From positions 62,001-126,000 of the forward strand of contig JAJTZB010000006.1 in assembly GCA_032906765.1 (NCBI GenBank): a stretch of 64,000 nt of DNA, given 5' to 3'. The position numbers were made by a program, and so were the translations under genes. Source of the stretch: Nitrososphaerales archaeon. GTDB taxonomy: Archaea; Thermoproteota; Nitrososphaeria; Nitrososphaerales; Gagatemarchaeaceae. Below, in pieces: positions 2,441 to 40,004 of the stretch. Positions within the stretch are counted from its first letter, which is position 1. Each line of letters opens with the position of its first letter. The notes under the pieces are model-generated. The model searched no databases and was not told where the DNA came from. It worked only from the letters and a program-made list of their open reading frames with translations.

Positions 2441-3736
2441 TCAGACGGAGATCTTCGTCATGTAGCCTTCGTCCGAGAAGAGCTGCCGGGTGGCCTTCTC
2501 GACGGCTGACCTGTCCTCCTGCTTCGTGTAGATCCTCAGTATGTCCATGAAGCCGGCTATTGCGCCGACGAGCTGAAGCTCGCTCAACCTGACCGTGCGG
2601 TGCTGCGCTTTCTTCCCCTGGCCAGAGATCAGCTTGATCGATGAGAGCGCCTCCCTGGACGACGAGTAGGGGACCGAAGGCGTCGTCGACACGTCGAAGT
2701 AGATGTGCATCTTGTCGACTCCCGCTCTCTCCGCCAGGTCCAAGACGACCTGATCTCTCATCCTGCTCTTCCCGAACAGCTCCTCCACCACCCTGTCCTT
2801 CCTCTGCACGAGGCGCTCGAAGACGCACTTGACCAGGCGCCTGTTCCTGAAGTCGTTCGCGAGGCGCTTCGCTTCCTTCAGCTCCGAGTCTGTCGCGTCG
2901 AGCGTGGCCAAATCGTGCAACACGACCTCGTCCGTCATCTCGAGGTACCTATCGATGTCGGTGAGGTTCGTCAACTGGAGGGCGTCGTCGGCGAGCTTCA
3001 TCGATTGTACTAGCATCAGCTCTGCCGCCCTGACCGTCCTGTGGAAGTAGACCGCCTTGAACATCTCATATCTGGCCAAGATGAGCGCCTCGAAAGCGTA
3101 GAGGGCGGCGTCGTCAAGCGCGAGGTGCTTGTCGGCGACTCGGAGCGAGTCAATCACCCTCTGTACGTCCACCTTGCCGTACTCGACGCCGGTGAAGTAG
3201 GAGTCGCGCAGGACGTAATCCATGATGTCTGCGCTGAGGCCTCCGGCCACTATCTCGTTCATGAAGGGAGGCTTGGAAGCGTGCTTACCCACGGCGTAGG
3301 CAGACATCTTCCTGGGCGAGAAACCGTGCTTGTTCAGGATGTCCTTGATCGAGGTCTCCCTCACCACCCTCTGCGAGATGTCCTCGTGCGTGATCGTCGC
3401 CTTGTCTGCCAGCACCTCCTCGTACATGTGGGAGAACGGGCCGTGGCCTACGTCGTGGAGCAGGGCGGCGAGCCTCGCTTCTTGAACCTGCTCCGCACTG
3501 ATGTCTGTGTGCCGAGACAGCGATTCGGCTATCCCTCCTGCGACGTGCATCGCGCCGACTACGTGCTCGAAGCGGGTGTGGACGGCGCCGGGATAGACGA
3601 GGTATGCGCCGGCGAGCTGGTGGATTCTCCTCAGCCGCTGAAGGAAGGGGGAGTCGATCATCTCCCGCTCGACGTCTGTTATCTTGATGTAGCCGTGGAC
3701 AGGATCCCTGATCTCTGCCACTGGTTTGAGCGTCAT
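2441..3736 (-). CDS. HD-domain phosphohydrolase (SAMHD1/dGTPase-like)
   Basis: The protein has the HD metal-binding signature: an HTRFEH block at residues 53-58 and LLHDVGHGPFSH around 92-103. The opening IRDPVHGYIKITDVE and LQRLRRIHQ are typical of the SAMHD1/YwfO dNTP triphosphohydrolase branch. The expected role is hydrolysis of dNTPs, controlling nucleotide pools, but substrate and allosteric control cannot be read from sequence. It overlaps the stop of tmk by 4 nt, so the two are probably translationally coupled, which fits a dNTP-metabolism job beside dTMP kinase. Length (431 residues) suits the family. Confidence 0.88.
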   Translation of the reverse strand: MTLKPVAEIRDPVHGYIKITDVEREMIDSPFLQRLRRIHQLAGAYLVYPGAVHTRFEHVVGAMHVAGGIAESLSRHTDISAEQVQEARLAALLHDVGHGPFSHMYEEVLADKATITHEDISQRVVRETSIKDILNKHGFSPRKMSAYAVGKHASKPPFMNEIVAGGLSADIMDYVLRDSYFTGVEYGKVDVQRVIDSLRVADKHLALDDAALYAFEALILARYEMFKAVYFHRTVRAAELMLVQSMKLADDALQLTNLTDIDRYLEMTDEVVLHDLATLDATDSELKEAKRLANDFRNRRLVKCVFERLVQRKDRVVEELFGKSRMRDQVVLDLAERAGVDKMHIYFDVSTTPSVPYSSSREALSSIKLISGQGKKAQHRTVRLSELQLVGAIAGFMDILRIYTKQEDRSAVEKATRQLFSDEGYMTKISV

Positions 3737-4374
3737 TGCGCCGCCTTACCCTTGACCTTGGCCGCGTCGCCTGATTGAATGAGTCCGATCACTGCGGCTG
3801 TCACCGAACGGTGGGTGTCTTGGATGCTGCCAGAAGCGTCTATCAATTTCCAGCCGAACCTGAGCGCGAGTTCCTTATACGCTTCCCTCGCCCTCTCCTG
3901 AATCTTCGCATCCCTCTCATACCTGTCCTTGGTGGAAGCCCTCCTGTTGTACAAAACCGAGGGGAGCGCATCTAGGACGAGGACTGCATCTGTCTTCGGG
4001 AGTCCGACCTCGAGGTTGGAGAGCCAGTCGAGGTTGAGGCCGTTGGCAATCCCGTAGGCCAGGTTGGACTCGGTGTAGCGGTTGACTATGGAGACGTCGG
4101 AACTGGTCAGCAGTGCCTCGACCTTTGCCTTGTCCTCCCAGCGGTTGGCAGCGAAGAGCATGTGTCTCACCTCGGCCGGGTACGTCTTCTTCCCGTGCAG
4201 GAAATCGTGTATCTCATTGCCGATGGTAGTGGAGTAGTCTGGAAACGAAATCGTGGCCACCGTCAACCCCTTGGCGCGCAGCCACTCGGTGAGCAGAGAG
4301 GTCTGCGTCCGCTTGCCTGCAGCGTCTATGCCCTCTATGCCGACGAGGACGCCTTTCTTCTGAATCATCTTCAC
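3733..4374 (-). CDS. tmk: Thymidylate kinase
   Basis: dTMP kinase converts dTMP to dTDP with ATP in the cytoplasm. The P-loop is at residues 12-21 (GIEGIDAAGKRTQ), unusual in having K-R after the glycine. Further support is NRYTESNLAYGIANG, resembling the DRY-type substrate motif and its following helix, and a LID region around RRASTKDRYERD. Length (213 residues) is standard. It precedes and overlaps the HD phosphohydrolase by 4 nt and follows the DUF2070 gene after 38 nt. ThyX, which makes the substrate dTMP, is encoded 37 kb away beside the polymerase D small subunit. Confidence 0.92.
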   Translation of the reverse strand: MKMIQKKGVLVGIEGIDAAGKRTQTSLLTEWLRAKGLTVATISFPDYSTTIGNEIHDFLHGKKTYPAEVRHMLFAANRWEDKAKVEALLTSSDVSIVNRYTESNLAYGIANGLNLDWLSNLEVGLPKTDAVLVLDALPSVLYNRRASTKDRYERDAKIQERAREAYKELALRFGWKLIDASGSIQDTHRSVTAAVIGLIQSGDAAKVKGKAAQ

Positions 4375-4412
4375 CCAGACTCGTCAGTCCAATCTGACTC
4401 TAAATCCCTTTC

Positions 4413-6206
4413 TCATGCCACGAGGCTTGCGGCAAAGAGGACGAGAGTAGACAGGCCAGCGAATACTGTGTATGTCTTGGCGAGCCTCGAGCTCTTCTGC
4501 GTCATCTCCGCGAACTCATTCAGCGCCTTCGAGCCGAAGACGTCGAGTTCGCTCGTGAGGTTGCCCGAGCCGTACCTGCAGCTTGAGAGCTTGGAATCTG
4601 CCATGGTCGCGAGCTTGACTGCGGTGCTGACGATCGAGTCGGGCGGAGTCGCCTCTCCCAGCGCGTGATATCCTCGGTTCACTGTGAGGCCGCGGGCCGC
4701 GAGGTCGTGGCTGTCTGAAGTGCAGAACTCTAGCAGCCTGAAGCCTGCGACCCCGAGCGCCTTCGCTGCGGCTTCGCGAAGGCTGGGTACCGCGTTGTTC
4801 GCGTCTGCCAGTATCAGCGCCCACTTGATGCCGCCTACCTCGAACAGCATGAGGGCCAGGCCGTTCGCAGTGAGGTCTCCCGAGGCTGCAAGGCCGACCT
4901 CGCTGGAATGGGCGTATCCAATCCTGAACGGCCGAGCAGGCGCGTCTCCCACGCCTTTCATCAGGGCCGTCCATCCCTCATCTTGGAGGTCTGGAGCCTC
5001 TCTCCCAGAATCTATCGAGTTGTGAGCGTCGACCACCGCGGCATTGTATCCCAGTCGCGATGCCATGCCAACCAGCCTCTCCTCCGCCTCGGTCTCCAAG
5101 TCGTCCGAGCCGTAAGGGGCGAACGAAATCGTCAGGAGTAGATCCTTCCCGAATGCGCTGGCCGCCGCCGTGGCCTTGCCAACCTTGGAGGCGGCCGGGC
5201 CGCGCATCTTTGCCGCTTCTGGGGCCGGTCTGACAGTCGCGGCAAAAGTCTTGATGGCCTCGCTGTACTTCCTGGCGTCTGCGTTCGTCGCCATGTTGTT
5301 CTCGTGGCCGCCAGGCCTGTGAAGCGTCATTACCCGACCCACGCCTTCGAACGAGCTGGAGAGAAGCCCGGGCAGGTTGTAGCTCCCCACCGGATAGAAG
5401 GGGCCGGGGTGGACGCCGGGCAGGACGATGAACGTGTCTCCGCTATCCTGCTGGAACCTGAACACCTTGGAAGACACCGTGGCTTTCGACGAATGCGCCG
5501 CTATTATCGCCTCCAACTGTGAAGCGTTGTCGTCGGCCCATGTCTTCATGAAAGCCTGAAAGAGCCTGACTGCATTGTAGCCGCGGCTCGTCTTCCTTCT
5601 CTTGAGTACCAAGGTGAACGACGCGATGATTGCGAACGCAATGACGCCGAGGGCGACGGCGGGTCCACCGTAGACTGCCGCCCCGATGAGCGACAACGCG
5701 GCCGCGGTAGCGAACGGGTGAACGGCACTCAGGAGCACGGAGGTCGATGAACGTTCGATGAATACTCCGTTTATGACCAAGAACTCGAACCCGGCGCAGA
5801 GGAAGCCTCCGAAGACGAAGGCGTTGCCAGCCGAACGGCCTGCCGGTTGGAAGAGAGAGTAGATTATGCCGAATGCAGCGAAGACGAACCAGAGTAGCTC
5901 ACCAGCCAGGACTGCCGCGGCGCTCCTCCTGAACGAAGTGACGCTCGTCTTGTCGGCGAGCTTCGCTGCCTTTGCGATGGCGAACGACGTGAGGGAGGCA
6001 ATAACGAAAGACGCCACTAAGGCGGTCGGCGCCCGCGACGTCCCCACAGCGGCAACGCTCAGTGCGAGAGAAGATGCCCCTAAGTAGACAAGCAGGATGC
6101 GGGCAGACGGCAGTACGAAGAGGTGCCTGTACCTGGCTGCGAGGGCCTCAGTCGACGATTGTCCATCTGCGTGGCGCGTCTCATCTGAAGAATATGTTGA
6201 TGACAA
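4413..6206 (-). CDS. DUF2070 family membrane protein
   Basis: Archaeal DUF2070 protein. The first ~210 residues contain about six hydrophobic membrane segments; the rest is a large soluble domain, and a final hydrophobic segment closes the protein. The soluble part has the family signature VLPGVHPGPFYPVGSYNLP and later LHRPGGHENN and VDAHNS, whose histidines and acids look like metal ligands of a hydrolase-like centre. The function of the family is unknown. The start used is TTG at 6206, which overlaps sec61beta by 26 nt; I see no better in-frame start before the first membrane segment. It lies between sec61beta and tmk on the same strand. Confidence 0.85.
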   Translation of the reverse strand: MSSTYSSDETRHADGQSSTEALAARYRHLFVLPSARILLVYLGASSLALSVAAVGTSRAPTALVASFVIASLTSFAIAKAAKLADKTSVTSFRRSAAAVLAGELLWFVFAAFGIIYSLFQPAGRSAGNAFVFGGFLCAGFEFLVINGVFIERSSTSVLLSAVHPFATAAALSLIGAAVYGGPAVALGVIAFAIIASFTLVLKRRKTSRGYNAVRLFQAFMKTWADDNASQLEAIIAAHSSKATVSSKVFRFQQDSGDTFIVLPGVHPGPFYPVGSYNLPGLLSSSFEGVGRVMTLHRPGGHENNMATNADARKYSEAIKTFAATVRPAPEAAKMRGPAASKVGKATAAASAFGKDLLLTISFAPYGSDDLETEAEERLVGMASRLGYNAAVVDAHNSIDSGREAPDLQDEGWTALMKGVGDAPARPFRIGYAHSSEVGLAASGDLTANGLALMLFEVGGIKWALILADANNAVPSLREAAAKALGVAGFRLLEFCTSDSHDLAARGLTVNRGYHALGEATPPDSIVSTAVKLATMADSKLSSCRYGSGNLTSELDVFGSKALNEFAEMTQKSSRLAKTYTVFAGLSTLVLFAASLVA

Positions 6207-18649: not shown

Positions 18650-19123
18650 AAAGAACCCCAGAACCGGAAAGTCGCTCGTGTGAGATGCGCCTGAGCTGTT
18701 TTGACTTGATGCGGATTGATGCTGTCCGATTGAGCTAGTGATAAAAGGTGGAAAATGTCGTGAATGTTGCTCGCGTTAGAGCTGCAGAGGGGCACCCACG
18801 CTTAACAGTGAAGACGAACCCCTGAAGACTTGACAGAACCTTCTGAACATGAAAACCACCAACACTAGACTCTCAATTTGCCAGCCTCGCGTATCCGCCC
18901 CTAGACGCGTTCGAAGCGAAGGTCGTCGGAATTCAACGGATTGGAAAGCGCGGCCGGAATCCTCTACCAGTCATCAGTGACTGAATGATTCCAGGCCAGA
19001 AGTCGCCCAGCCCCGCCGTCTGTGTCCAGCATGTTGATTTGAAACCGCACATGCGGCCTCGATATGTAGAATGAGCGGAACCTGAAGCAAATCTTATTTC
19101 ATTCAGATTCCCACCACCCGTAG
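18650..19123. other. Intergenic stretch without a recognisable feature
   Basis: About 470 nt with no convincing gene. A small hairpin (ATCAGTGACTGAATGAT region near 18973) and short A/T-rich tracts occur, including CTTATTTCATTC at about 19090-19102, a possible promoter for the next gene. I see no tRNA or known RNA. Confidence 0.4.
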
Positions 19124-36280: not shown

Positions 36281-37480
36281 ATGTCGGGTTCTGGGGGAAT
36301 AAACGAGATTTTCCGGAGGGCCAAGGAAGGTAAGGCGTTGTTCGTCGACAGGAGCGTCCTGGGCCCGGACTATGTCCCCGACAAGCTCCCGTTCCGTGAC
36401 GCCCAAATCAAAGCGGTCGCGGAGGTCCTGGCACCAATCCTCCACAGCTCAAAGCCCTCTAACCTTCTTCTCTATGGCAAGACGGGAACGGGAAAGACGG
36501 CAGTGGCACGCTACGTCCTCTCCAAGCTGCAGGCAGAGGCGAAGACGTCGAACCTGGTCGTCGCATACGTCAACACGCGGCTGGCCAACACCGAGTACAG
36601 GACGCTGGCCGACTTTGCGAAGTTCCTCGAGCTTCCAGCCGACAAACAAATCCCGTTCACCGGGCTCTCCATCGGCGAGGTCGTGGGCAGGACCTTCGAG
36701 AGCATTCGGTCGGCCAAGAAGAACGTCATCCTCGTCCTGGACGAGATAGACTACCTCGTGAAAGCTTTCGGCGACAGCATCCTCTACGAGTTCACCCGCT
36801 CTAACGAGAGGCTCTCGCCCGGGTTCTTGGCCTTGGTTGGAATATCGAACGACCTCAAGTTCAAGGATAATCTCGACCCGCGCGTACTCAGCAGCCTCAG
36901 CGAAGAGGAGCTCGTCTTCCCCCCTTACACTGTGGACGAGCTGAGGGAGATACTCAGGGAGAGGGCGGCGATGGCGTTCAGGAAGTCTGCGGCGTCGGAC
37001 GCTGCAATCAACCTGTGTGCGGCTATGGCAGGATCGGAGCACGGGGACGCGAGGCGAGCCGTGGACCTCCTGCGAATAGCAGGCGAGGTAGCAGAGAGAG
37101 AAGGTCGGAGCCAGATAGACGATTCATGCGTCAAGAAGGCATCGGACAAGATGGAGCACGATCGCGTAGAGGACGGGATTAGGTCGCTTCCAGTGCAGAA
37201 CAAGGCCATCCTCCTCGCTACATCAAAGTTCGATTCAGGGACGAACACTGGGGAGCTGTACCTGGTCTACGGCAACCTCTGCAAGAAGCTCGGCCTCGAG
37301 GCCCTCACGCAGAGGCGCGTCAGCGGCATACTCGCGGAGCTGGACCTCCTCGGGCTGGTGGAAGCGTCGGTGGTGAGCAAGGGGCGGCGCGGCAGGACGA
37401 AGAGGATTAAGCTCTTGATAGGGAGAGAAGGCCTCGCGAAGACCCTCTCAGAAGACCCAGCGTTCGCTGGCCTGGTCTAA
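36281..37480 (+). CDS. orc1: Orc1/Cdc6 replication initiator
   Basis: AAA+ initiator that binds ORB elements and loads MCM. Walker A is LLLYGKTGTGKTAVARY (residues about 62-78), Walker B VILVLDEIDYLVKA (about 149-162), sensor 1 ALVGISNDLKF (about 186-196), and sensor 2 includes HGDARRAVDLLRIA. The C-terminal winged helix (about 300-399, e.g. GLEALTQRRVSGILAELDLLGLVEA) binds DNA. Length 399 is normal. It starts 7 nt after an inverted ORB and next to the ORB-bearing interval, so it is the initiator of this origin. Confidence 0.95.
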   Translation: MSGSGGINEIFRRAKEGKALFVDRSVLGPDYVPDKLPFRDAQIKAVAEVLAPILHSSKPSNLLLYGKTGTGKTAVARYVLSKLQAEAKTSNLVVAYVNTRLANTEYRTLADFAKFLELPADKQIPFTGLSIGEVVGRTFESIRSAKKNVILVLDEIDYLVKAFGDSILYEFTRSNERLSPGFLALVGISNDLKFKDNLDPRVLSSLSEEELVFPPYTVDELREILRERAAMAFRKSAASDAAINLCAAMAGSEHGDARRAVDLLRIAGEVAEREGRSQIDDSCVKKASDKMEHDRVEDGIRSLPVQNKAILLATSKFDSGTNTGELYLVYGNLCKKLGLEALTQRRVSGILAELDLLGLVEASVVSKGRRGRTKRIKLLIGREGLAKTLSEDPAFAGLV

Positions 37481-37503
37481 GAGCCTATTTTCAAATGGTT
37501 CTG

Positions 37504-37896
37504 TTAAGTTGGTGGGTGCTCGTTCTCCCTGTTAAGTGTCGGGTGCTGGCGATATCCCCTCACCACTACCACGATGCCAAGCAATATCAAGACAACACCT
37601 ATGAAATTAAGCGCGTAGCCCGTTGAACTTGAAACGCCAACAGGAAGTGTGATTGGGAAAGGAGTGAACGACGACAGATGAGCAGGGACACAATTCGCGG
37701 TAAGACCCAGCGGCGGTGGCGGCGGCAACAACGAATTCAACAGATTCCATGTCGGATACAAATAGCAAGTCGCAGCGACCGTCCAACCCGTCGTTCCCCT
37801 ATAAGACATGACATTGACTCCTCCGAAGAGAGCCATGACAACTCCTATCAAGAGAATCACCGTTCCAATAACGAGTAGAGACTTCATTCGCTTCAT
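37504..37896 (-). CDS. Hypothetical two-helix membrane protein
   Basis: A 130-residue protein with membrane helices near both ends (LLVIGTVILLIGVVMALFGG and ALNFIGVVLILLGIVVVVRG) enclosing an extracytoplasmic loop with a Pro-rich LLPPPPPLG and two cysteines. The C-terminal tail RQHPTLNRENEHPPT is encoded by the left inverted repeat, so the tail probably came with the cassette end. Its start overlaps the upstream gene by 4 nt. Its first 19 coding nt are nearly identical to those of the neighbour (MKSLLV). No known family. Confidence 0.6.
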   Translation of the reverse strand: MKRMKSLLVIGTVILLIGVVMALFGGVNVMSYRGTTGWTVAATCYLYPTWNLLNSLLPPPPPLGLTANCVPAHLSSFTPFPITLPVGVSSSTGYALNFIGVVLILLGIVVVVRGYRQHPTLNRENEHPPT

Positions 37897-38447
37897 TCAT
37901 TTCCACCTGTCACGTTCTGTCGTCGCGGCGCTGCTGACAATCTTCCACTCCTAAGGTTCGCAAATGCAATCGCGACAAACGCGGGAAATAGGATGTCCAA
38001 GCCAGACCTGACGAGTAAAACTGAGAAAGACGTGACGGTGGTCACCACGGAAAGGATGTCTGGGAACGCGGCCCCCCAAGAACCGCCGAGTAACACGGGC
38101 ATCAGGAAAAATGACACAGAGCCGCCCAACAATCCGCCGATGAATATGTAGATGGCGACGGAGGCGTAGTTCTCCGTCAAGTCAATCTTCCTGCCAAGGC
38201 GATAGAATACGACGAACAGGAACACGGGGTTGACGAGGAATGAAGTGTAGGAGAAAATTGAGACGAAAAGAAGCTGATAACGTTCAAAGCCAAAACTAGT
38301 TGATGCCAACGGGACCAGAAACTTCGAGAGAACGGTTGGTATGCCTTCCCACAGGGCCGACATGAGAAGTGCAACGAGCAGGAGGCCGACGAACCTGGGT
38401 CTCTGCCCGCTCTCCACGGTTTGACTGCTAACGAGCAGAGACTTCAT
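37893..38447 (-). CDS. Hypothetical polytopic membrane protein
   Basis: A 184-residue protein with four to five hydrophobic segments (FVGLLLVALLMSALWEGI, LLFVSIFSYTSFLVNPVFLFVVFY, YASVAIYIFIGGLLGGSVSFFLMPVLLGG, and a C-terminal segment LDILFPAFVAIAFANL). No catalytic motif is evident. Its promoter lies within the right inverted repeat, with a TATA-like ATAAATA (minus strand, about 38472-38478) about 28 nt upstream. It is cotranscribed with the next gene. Confidence 0.6.
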   Translation of the reverse strand: MKSLLVSSQTVESGQRPRFVGLLLVALLMSALWEGIPTVLSKFLVPLASTSFGFERYQLLFVSIFSYTSFLVNPVFLFVVFYRLGRKIDLTENYASVAIYIFIGGLLGGSVSFFLMPVLLGGSWGAAFPDILSVVTTVTSFSVLLVRSGLDILFPAFVAIAFANLRSGRLSAAPRRQNVTGGNE

Positions 38448-38525
38448 TTCATCACCCGACGCTTAACACCCGTATTTATCCCCCACCAACTTAACAGAAC
38501 CCGATGGACAATTCTAGGATAGGCT

Positions 38526-40004
38526 CTAAGCAGCGGGAAAGGCCGCGGCGCCGAAGTTCCTTCTGATGACGCTCACGTTGGACAGGTCGACTACGGGAAT
38601 TATGCTGGGCGTCGGCTCCAAGCCCATGTTGACTTGGAAGCTCGTCTGGGCCTGCCACGTACCAGAGTTCACTACCAAGGTGCCCCTGTAGTTCAGCTCG
38701 CCGTAGGTGTGCACGTGTCCGCTGTGGAAGACATCGGGTACGGGGTCGACGACCATGAAGTCGCGGAGCTCCGGCGAGAGGGCGGTCCGCTTCCCGTAGG
38801 TCGGGGCCAAGTGCCTTGATCGAAGAAGCAGCTTCATCGCATCGGTGGGCTTGTTGTAGGAGAGGTCTGGGGTGGTCGCGATGATGTCGTCCAGGCTCTT
38901 GCCGTGGTAGACGAGGAACGTCACTCCGTGCAACTTGACGTATGCAGGGTCGCCCACCAGCCTGACGTTCTCCATCCTGTACAGCGACTCGGCGATGTCG
39001 GCCGAGACAGCCGGCTGGGGCAGCGCCTGCCTGACCGCGTCGTGGTTCCCCGGGGACACGATTATCTGGACGTGGCTCGGCAGCTCCTCGAGGAGCTTGG
39101 CCGCCGTTTCATACTGCTTCTTCGGGTCCCTCTCGGCCAGCTGGAACTCCTGCCCGGGATAGACGCCGACGCCGTCGATCAGGTCGCCTGCTACGACGAC
39201 GTACTTGATTCTGTTGACCACGTCGAGGTCTCCGAGCTTTCCGTTGATCCACAGGACAAAGCGCTGGAAGTCGTCGGCGAGGAACATCTTGCTTCCGACG
39301 TGCAGGTCCGACAGAAGCACGGCGTAGACTCTGTGCGAGCCGCTGGACACCCTTCTGTCCGGCACGTCAGGGAGCATCAGGGAGTCGGCGTAGAGCTGGC
39401 CTGACTTGCTCCTGGACACCTCCATCACCACCATGCTGTCGAGCGGCGCCTCCAGAGCCGACTTCACGACGCCTTCGTCCCGGCAAGTCACGCGCAGCGT
39501 CCCGCTCGGGTCGTCTATCGTCACCTCCACGCCGCTCTTCCTATGAACTTTGTTGGAAATGAGGCCTGCGACCTTCATCTTCTGGCCTTGGGCCATGTTC
39601 CTGCCCGTAGCCGTAGTCCCCACGCCCTTCGTGTCTGGTCTCTTCCTGACGACGGAGAGAAGGCGATCATACCTGTCCCTGAAGAGCCGGCTGTATCCCT
39701 CAAGCGCTTCAATAGGCGCGATTGACTGGGTTGGGTCAGACATCATCTCCATCTCTGGTTCCTGTCCCAAAACAGGCGGCAACTCCATGCCGACGCTGGA
39801 CGGCTCCGCCGGAAGGGCCCGCCTCACGTCGTCCTCCGTGATGCGCTTCACCTCGGCCTTCGCCCCTCCTTTCTGCTCCAGCAGCTTCTCCATCAGGCCG
39901 TCGACGTCAGATTCCTGCGGCAGCCCGACTATGAGGTCGTACGCCTTGACGTCGAGGACGAACCCCAAGGCCATGATCCTGGAGATGGCCTTCACCTGTG
40001 ACAT
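38526..40004 (-). CDS. polB: DNA polymerase D small subunit (DP1)
   Basis: Proofreading 3'-5' exonuclease subunit of polymerase D. The C-terminal calcineurin-like phosphoesterase is intact: LLSDLHVGS, VVAGDLIDGVGVYPGQEFQL, VSPGNHDAVRQALPQP and FHSGHVHTYGE hold the metal ligands, preceded by an OB-fold (VAGLISNKVHRKSGVEVTIDDPSGTLRV). The N-terminal ~100 residues form the usual variable region. 492 residues is typical. It ends the thyX-like - thyX - mutase - DP1 operon (25 nt from the mutase), pairing dTMP supply with polymerase production. Confidence 0.95.
   Translation of the reverse strand: MSQVKAISRIMALGFVLDVKAYDLIVGLPQESDVDGLMEKLLEQKGGAKAEVKRITEDDVRRALPAEPSSVGMELPPVLGQEPEMEMMSDPTQSIAPIEALEGYSRLFRDRYDRLLSVVRKRPDTKGVGTTATGRNMAQGQKMKVAGLISNKVHRKSGVEVTIDDPSGTLRVTCRDEGVVKSALEAPLDSMVVMEVSRSKSGQLYADSLMLPDVPDRRVSSGSHRVYAVLLSDLHVGSKMFLADDFQRFVLWINGKLGDLDVVNRIKYVVVAGDLIDGVGVYPGQEFQLAERDPKKQYETAAKLLEELPSHVQIIVSPGNHDAVRQALPQPAVSADIAESLYRMENVRLVGDPAYVKLHGVTFLVYHGKSLDDIIATTPDLSYNKPTDAMKLLLRSRHLAPTYGKRTALSPELRDFMVVDPVPDVFHSGHVHTYGELNYRGTLVVNSGTWQAQTSFQVNMGLEPTPSIIPVVDLSNVSVIRRNFGAAAFPAA

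Follow-up and report, generated by a model that had tools for sequence, protein, structure and literature searches.

What is the unit of about 1 kb that separates two replication genes in this archaeal genome, and how could it have come there? The window is the whole analysed stretch of 64,000 nucleotides. In it the genes for Orc1/Cdc6 (left) and a DNA polymerase small subunit, presumably DP1 of DNA polymerase D (right), are convergent, and the unit at 37497–38501 sits between them. We read this unit, with a probability of about 0.88, as a non-autonomous passenger-carrying transposable element, i.e. a mobile insertion cassette (MIC), which belongs to an IS6-related archaeal family and would use a transposase in trans. 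The locus contains the following features.

36281–37480, plus strand: Orc1/Cdc6 host gene, 399 aa (Cdc6_C 79.5 bits, Cdc6_lid 75.1 bits)
37477–37488, plus strand: left outer flank, a CTAAG direct repeat overlapping GAGCCTAT, with the Orc1/Cdc6 stop inside
37497–37548, plus strand: left (distal) end, with block 1 GGTTCTGTTAAGTTGGTGGGTG, a linker and block 2 CTGTTAAGTGTCGGGTGCTG
37504–37896, minus strand: cargo gene 2, a 130-aa small membrane protein
37893–38447, minus strand: cargo gene 1, a 184-aa predicted multi-helix membrane protein
38450–38501, minus strand: right (putative promoter-side) end, with both blocks again at 28-bp spacing
38519–38530, plus strand: right outer flank, ATAGGCTC and the second CTAAG copy, with the DP1 stop inside
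38526–40004, minus strand: polymerase small subunit host gene (putative DP1), 492 aa (DNA_pol_E_B 65 bits, Metallophos 46.4 bits)

Positions 37497–37516 and 38482–38501 form a 20-bp perfect inverted repeat, the longest exact one in the 3.1-kb region. An exact inverted repeat of at least 20 bp appeared in only 1 of 200 dinucleotide shuffles of this region. Over 52 bp the two inverted ends are identical at 40 positions, with the first 20 perfect, and the second block matches at 14/15 positions in the same register as the first. The open reading frames of the unit include two membrane-protein genes on the minus strand and no transposase. A preliminary description of this DNA, made from its letters, had already reported the identical 20-bp block, the 15-bp block with 14 matches in inverted register, the two membrane-protein genes and the lack of a transposase, and all of these were found again. 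It did not mention that each end consists of two direct copies of a block of about 20 bp. In the left end the block cores begin at 37501 and 37529, which are 28 bp apart. Each copy consists of CTGTTAAG, a few bases and GGGTG. The unit combines IS-type inverted ends and cargo with the lack of a transposase gene, as a MIC does.

The cargo is closely fitted to the ends. Cargo gene 1 starts directly behind the right end, which carries ATAAATA at 38473–38479 (minus strand) between its two blocks. This TATA-like stretch closely precedes the first ORF, so transcription of the cargo probably starts from the right end of the element itself, which would then act as a promoter. At the other side, the last ~13 codons and the stop of cargo gene 2 are encoded by the left end, which bears out the earlier claim for its C-terminus and extends it to the stop. 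The last cargo ORF in this respect resembles the transposase ORF of several autonomous elements, whose stop also lies in the opposite end. Cargo gene 1 has no Pfam match at E ≤ 1 and no match in plasmids. Its single-sequence structure model (pLDDT 58.1, pTM 0.33) has low confidence and is too poor for a fold search. Homologues of this gene are present in 10 other genomes. Since none of the 13 homologous loci elsewhere had such ends within ~1.5 kb, the gene looks captured. For cargo gene 2, one homologue was found (34% over residues 5–118), in a second cassette of the same genome (C2:53818–55627). The two cargo genes have ATGAAGTCTCTRCTCGTTA in common with one mismatch (19/20 nt; 37869–37888 and 38429–38448). 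The preliminary description had given this stretch as the first 19 coding nucleotides of both genes; in cargo gene 2 it begins at Met codon 4 and not at the first codon of the ORF. Cargo genes may have been copied or exchanged behind a start that they share. The first gene of the C2 cassette also begins much like them.

The recurrence of the ends was examined in 61 genomes, namely the own genome and 60 relatives, none of which has the own genus code. BLAST of the unit found these ends at further sites of the own genome and gave matches in 11/61 genomes. A profile of the ends (R1) was built from 23 ends, including both window ends. The left end scores 49.3 bits (E 1.9e-14) and the right end 48.0 bits against R1, which these and the other building sequences match by construction because the profile contains them. 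In the own genome R1 has 27 matches at E ≤ 1, of which 15 reach E ≤ 1e-4, and at the latter threshold matches occur in 23/61 genomes. The window holds one more end, on its own:

18794–18840, minus strand: solo end of the family, 28-bp spacing (35.5 bits against R1, of which it is also a building sequence)

Within the window no partner was found for this end, and its flanking 8-mer occurs once only; it is apparently a remnant.

Paired ends with identical 8-mers at their outer sides were then sought as a sign of target duplication. The first 35 loci yielded 19 pairs. In every one the 8-bp repeat was exact, and no pair with a single mismatch turned up, whereas a shifted-flank null gave 0.04 exact pairs per 35 loci. 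Across 93 loci, 31 distinct elements have paired ends of this type within an exact 8-bp duplication of the target; the number is not a frequency because the loci were picked for holding ends or a transposase. Left out of this count were duplicates (two identical rows, and three in which an element already counted is read in reverse) and two rows whose repeat has one mismatch (L270, plus a spanning pair found in L163). The 31 elements comprise 21 with a transposase, nine with cargo only (L046, L050, L068, L070, L259, L262, L265, L273 and L278) and one (L276) with a 29-residue C-terminal transposase tail. Members of the family insert with duplication of 8 bp of target. The second cassette of the own genome, which is transposase-free, has the duplication TTGATTCA; it shares with the window cassette 88% over ~72 bp of the promoter-side end and 83% over 52 bp of the other end. 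The window copy lacks an 8-bp target duplication (TTTCAAAT on the left, CGATGGAC on the right), as does a cassette with Endonuclease_7 cargo (L051).

The transposase of the family has about 380–400 aa and carries a SWIM zinc finger, a zinc ribbon and an IS240-type DDE domain. In three transposases scanned, PF13610 (DDE_Tnp_IS240) scored 49.6–59.5 bits (cut-off 27) in all three, and Pfam called SWIM in two. The NCBIfam IS6 model NF033587 was the best model in all three but reached only 102–122.6 bits, below its cut-off of 125; the transposase is therefore termed IS6-like or IS6-related and not a member of IS6. Its profile had no match among PDB sequences at E ≤ 0.01. Plasmid records that match it and carry a product name are annotated as IS6-family, with 22–27% identity among the 8 matches listed. 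Relatives at E ≤ 1e-20 occur in 31/61 genomes. In a scan of genome contigs, 34 transposase loci were recorded, whose titles are mostly Thaumarchaeota, Nitrososphaerales/Nitrososphaerota and Bathyarchaeota, with one Sifarchaeum and one Nanoarchaeia. The GGYTCTG ends with 8-bp repeats presumably suggest IS1595, and this family was also considered. It was rejected, since PF12762 (DDE_Tnp_IS1595) was found in 0/1 genomes (the own genome) and the actual transposase is IS240/IS6-like; the control search was positive in 1/14 control genomes, Haloferax volcanii.

The own genome encodes five near-full-length transposases of this kind and three fragments. The five lie in elements (L049, L105, L107, L108 and L215) whose ends are of this type and are flanked by exact 8-bp duplications, so intact transposase-bearing relatives of the window cassette exist in its own genome. 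Such autonomous relatives would supply the transposase in trans, and the end blocks are its putative binding sites. Consistently, the two blocks of one end vary together (TGTTCG/TGTTCG in L105, TGTCCA/TGTCCA in L118, TGTTGCG in the left end of L108), as would be expected if a single protein bound them as paired sites.

The spacing between the two blocks was compared over 33 elements. Spacings of 28 and 37 bp occur most often, single values being soft because they were chosen by best self-match. Both ends of an element have equal spacing (±1 bp) in 19 of the 22 measurable elements, while permutation gave a mean of 7.4 and a maximum of 16 in 10,000. For the recognition of ends by the transposase, this raises the question why the ends of one element share their spacing while elements differ by steps of ~9–10 bp. 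Against the transposase tree, spacing switches repeatedly, with 9 changes among 21 rows, and it was not supported as a marker of transposase clades. Because spacing tracks transposase phylogeny poorly, the cognate transposase cannot be named. Among the five autonomous elements of the own genome, one (L105) has 28-bp spacing, but its core TGTTCG differs; L108 has a spacing of ~31 bp.

No autonomous element of the own genome was found to combine 28-bp spacing with the TGTTAAG core. Together with the missing 8-bp duplication, this is compatible with a dead relic, in which the cognate transposase was lost and the cassette is now a fixed gene pair. We regard such a state as possible but somewhat doubtful, since the ends are well preserved with their first 20 bp identical, both ORFs are open, and the five near-full-length transposases of the family are at hand.

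The site was compared with that of relatives, for which loci were obtained for 30 of 45 matches. The sample consisted of 29 relative loci fetched with DP1, 25 of which also hold Orc1/Cdc6; the stretch had no Orc1 match in the other four (L142, L144, L146 and L151). In all 25 relatives with both genes placed, the aligned ends of Orc1/Cdc6 and DP1 are 6–70 nt apart, compared with 1,052 nt in the window, and in many of them the stops nearly abut or overlap. Neither cargo gene had a copy in these loci. The insert is absent from 25/25 relatives, and the cassette lies between the two stop codons. The MIC assignment is based on the wider family of elements together with the empty site and does not rely on a duplication of the window copy; a duplication of the length seen in autonomous relatives, exactly 8 bp, is found in the nine other transposase-free elements.

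The preliminary description had proposed a cargo-only mobile unit, and had suggested looking for the ends elsewhere, for a matching transposase and for empty sites. It held that ends unique in the genome and an arrangement fixed in all relatives would point to shared regulatory sequence. Neither was seen, all three suggested searches gave results in its favour, and its reading proved largely right, for a copy that has no duplication of its own.

Outside the unit, at the stops of both neighbours, GAGCCTAT and ATAGGCTC form an inverted pair accompanied by the CTAAG direct repeat, which had not been described before. IS6-type elements make adjacent deletions. It could be argued that the last mover was an outer element with GAGCCTAT ends, which duplicated TAA (or CTAAG), and that the IS6-like cassette lies in its remains, having lost its own duplication, e.g. 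by an adjacent deletion. This would account for the missing 8-bp repeat, and it fits the relatives, which have only nearly abutting or overlapping gene ends at this place. However, a search allowing up to 3 mismatches found the 22-bp right outer sequence in 1/61 genomes (its own), and within the own genome neither outer flank had another copy by DNA search; we consider an outer element unlikely. The simple outer pattern GAGCCTATYYTMRAAT was uninformative at up to 3 mismatches (95 matches versus 59 in the backwards control), with exact matches only at the two sites of this locus.

The TATA-like stretch with an ORF start at one end and the ORF stop at the other would also suit regulatory DNA common to small membrane-protein genes, such as promoter or terminator modules. 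With similar ends surrounding unrelated cargo, exact duplications on 31 elements of which 21 bear a transposase, an empty site in every relative compared and homologues of cargo gene 1 that lack the ends, this reading is very improbable and is refuted as the sole explanation, although the ends may have a double role.

The cassette and its family were compared with known systems. Like IS6 elements (IS26, IS257 and IS240), as treated in the sections of the IS6 review consulted (PMC7986276), the archaeal family has 8-bp duplications, GG tips with cTGTt and an IS240-type DDE domain. Of the GG tip, cTGTt and caaa motifs of the single 15–20-bp IS6 terminal repeat, the window ends show the first two but have AAGTT in place of caaa, and their repeat block is present twice per end. 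The same sections of the review describe zinc-finger clades, one passenger-carrying member (ISDsp3) and two MITEs. Compared with what is stated there for IS6, the archaeal family differs in having the N-terminal SWIM and zinc ribbon, in size (2.0–5.5 kb against ~0.8 kb for a typical IS6 element), in its two-block ends of ~50 bp (against 15–20 bp), and in commonly carrying passengers, whereas ISDsp3 is the single such IS6 member named (PMC7986276). The 21 transposase-bearing elements, which span these 2.0–5.5 kb, have other ORFs aboard. No published description of this SWIM-bearing IS6-like family was found in the open-licence literature.

In its transposase-free organisation the cassette resembles MICs described from other IS families, such as MIC231 of Bacillus cereus. 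According to the parts of the sources used (PMC2266710, PMC3129680), MIC231 is of IS231/IS4 type and has IS ends around cargo without a transposase, and a cognate transposase encoded at another place in the genome is presumed to activate it. Both have IS ends with transposase-free cargo; the window cassette would be mobilised in trans. Unlike MIC231, which belongs to an unrelated IS family and another domain of hosts, the window cassette has probable promoter-like sequence in one end. IS-like DDE transposons occur in Thaumarchaeota in a 2019 survey of 20 thaumarchaeal genomes with IS calls by ISsaga, as they do here; the consulted part of that survey lists passenger-carrying composite DNA transposons as undetected in archaea (PMC6563490).

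The passengers of the family are diverse. Cation_efflux cargo is carried by L262 (over the cut-off) and L273 (0.1 bit below the cut-off), PaREP1 by L070, small membrane proteins and a YHS-domain protein by L046, and the Endonuclease_7 cargo of L051, which has no repeat, is in the own genome. The transposase-bearing L071 has a DNA methylase passenger. One further element, beyond the 31, with a transposase, the same two-block ends and the exact 8-bp repeat GCGTGTGG is located at 2638–5574 of locus L281, on a 76-kb IMG/VR contig. Tentatively, and at slightly less than even odds, we propose that the SWIM-bearing IS6-like family of Thaumarchaeota and Bathyarchaeota is a gene-shuttling platform. Its transposase-free copies would hold genes taken up from elsewhere, for small membrane proteins, TnpB, cation-efflux pumps, a PaREP1 protein and an endonuclease VII-type protein, behind promoter-bearing two-site ends. 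They would be moved in trans, with virus-like replicons accounting for part of their spread, giving archaea cassette-type transposons of their own. If the main reading is right, thaumarchaea and bathyarchaea possess a family of cargo transposons and transposase-free cassettes; passenger-carrying composite transposons are among the classes that the survey cited gives as undetected in archaea (PMC6563490). Two blocks of ~20 bp, mostly 28 or 37 bp apart, together with 8-bp duplications could serve as a signature for counting gene capture and movement in uncultivated archaea.

Several further observations were made on single elements. L281 contains a GGGATAAAAATG stretch between its end blocks, much like the promoter-side end of the window cassette. 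L214 1778–3158 (C5:19277–20657 of the own genome, no exact repeat) carries TnpB/Cas12f1-like cargo by Pfam, and L259 3124–4789, in a different genome, carries the same kind of cargo by similarity of reading; in both, an IS200/605-type nuclease is a passenger in an IS6-like cassette. L215 937–6412 (C2:171936–177411 of the own genome) is 5.5 kb long with the exact repeat CCCCGCCT. Beside the transposase it holds a 959-aa Eco57I/N6-methylase/restriction-like protein and a DUF3800 protein, so that a restriction-type gene is found on a small transposon. In L049 (2689–2710) and L074 (524–545), an element starts exactly 8 bp past the end of another, and this 8-mer is the target repeat of the second element, as if the border of an element already in place were the target for insertion.
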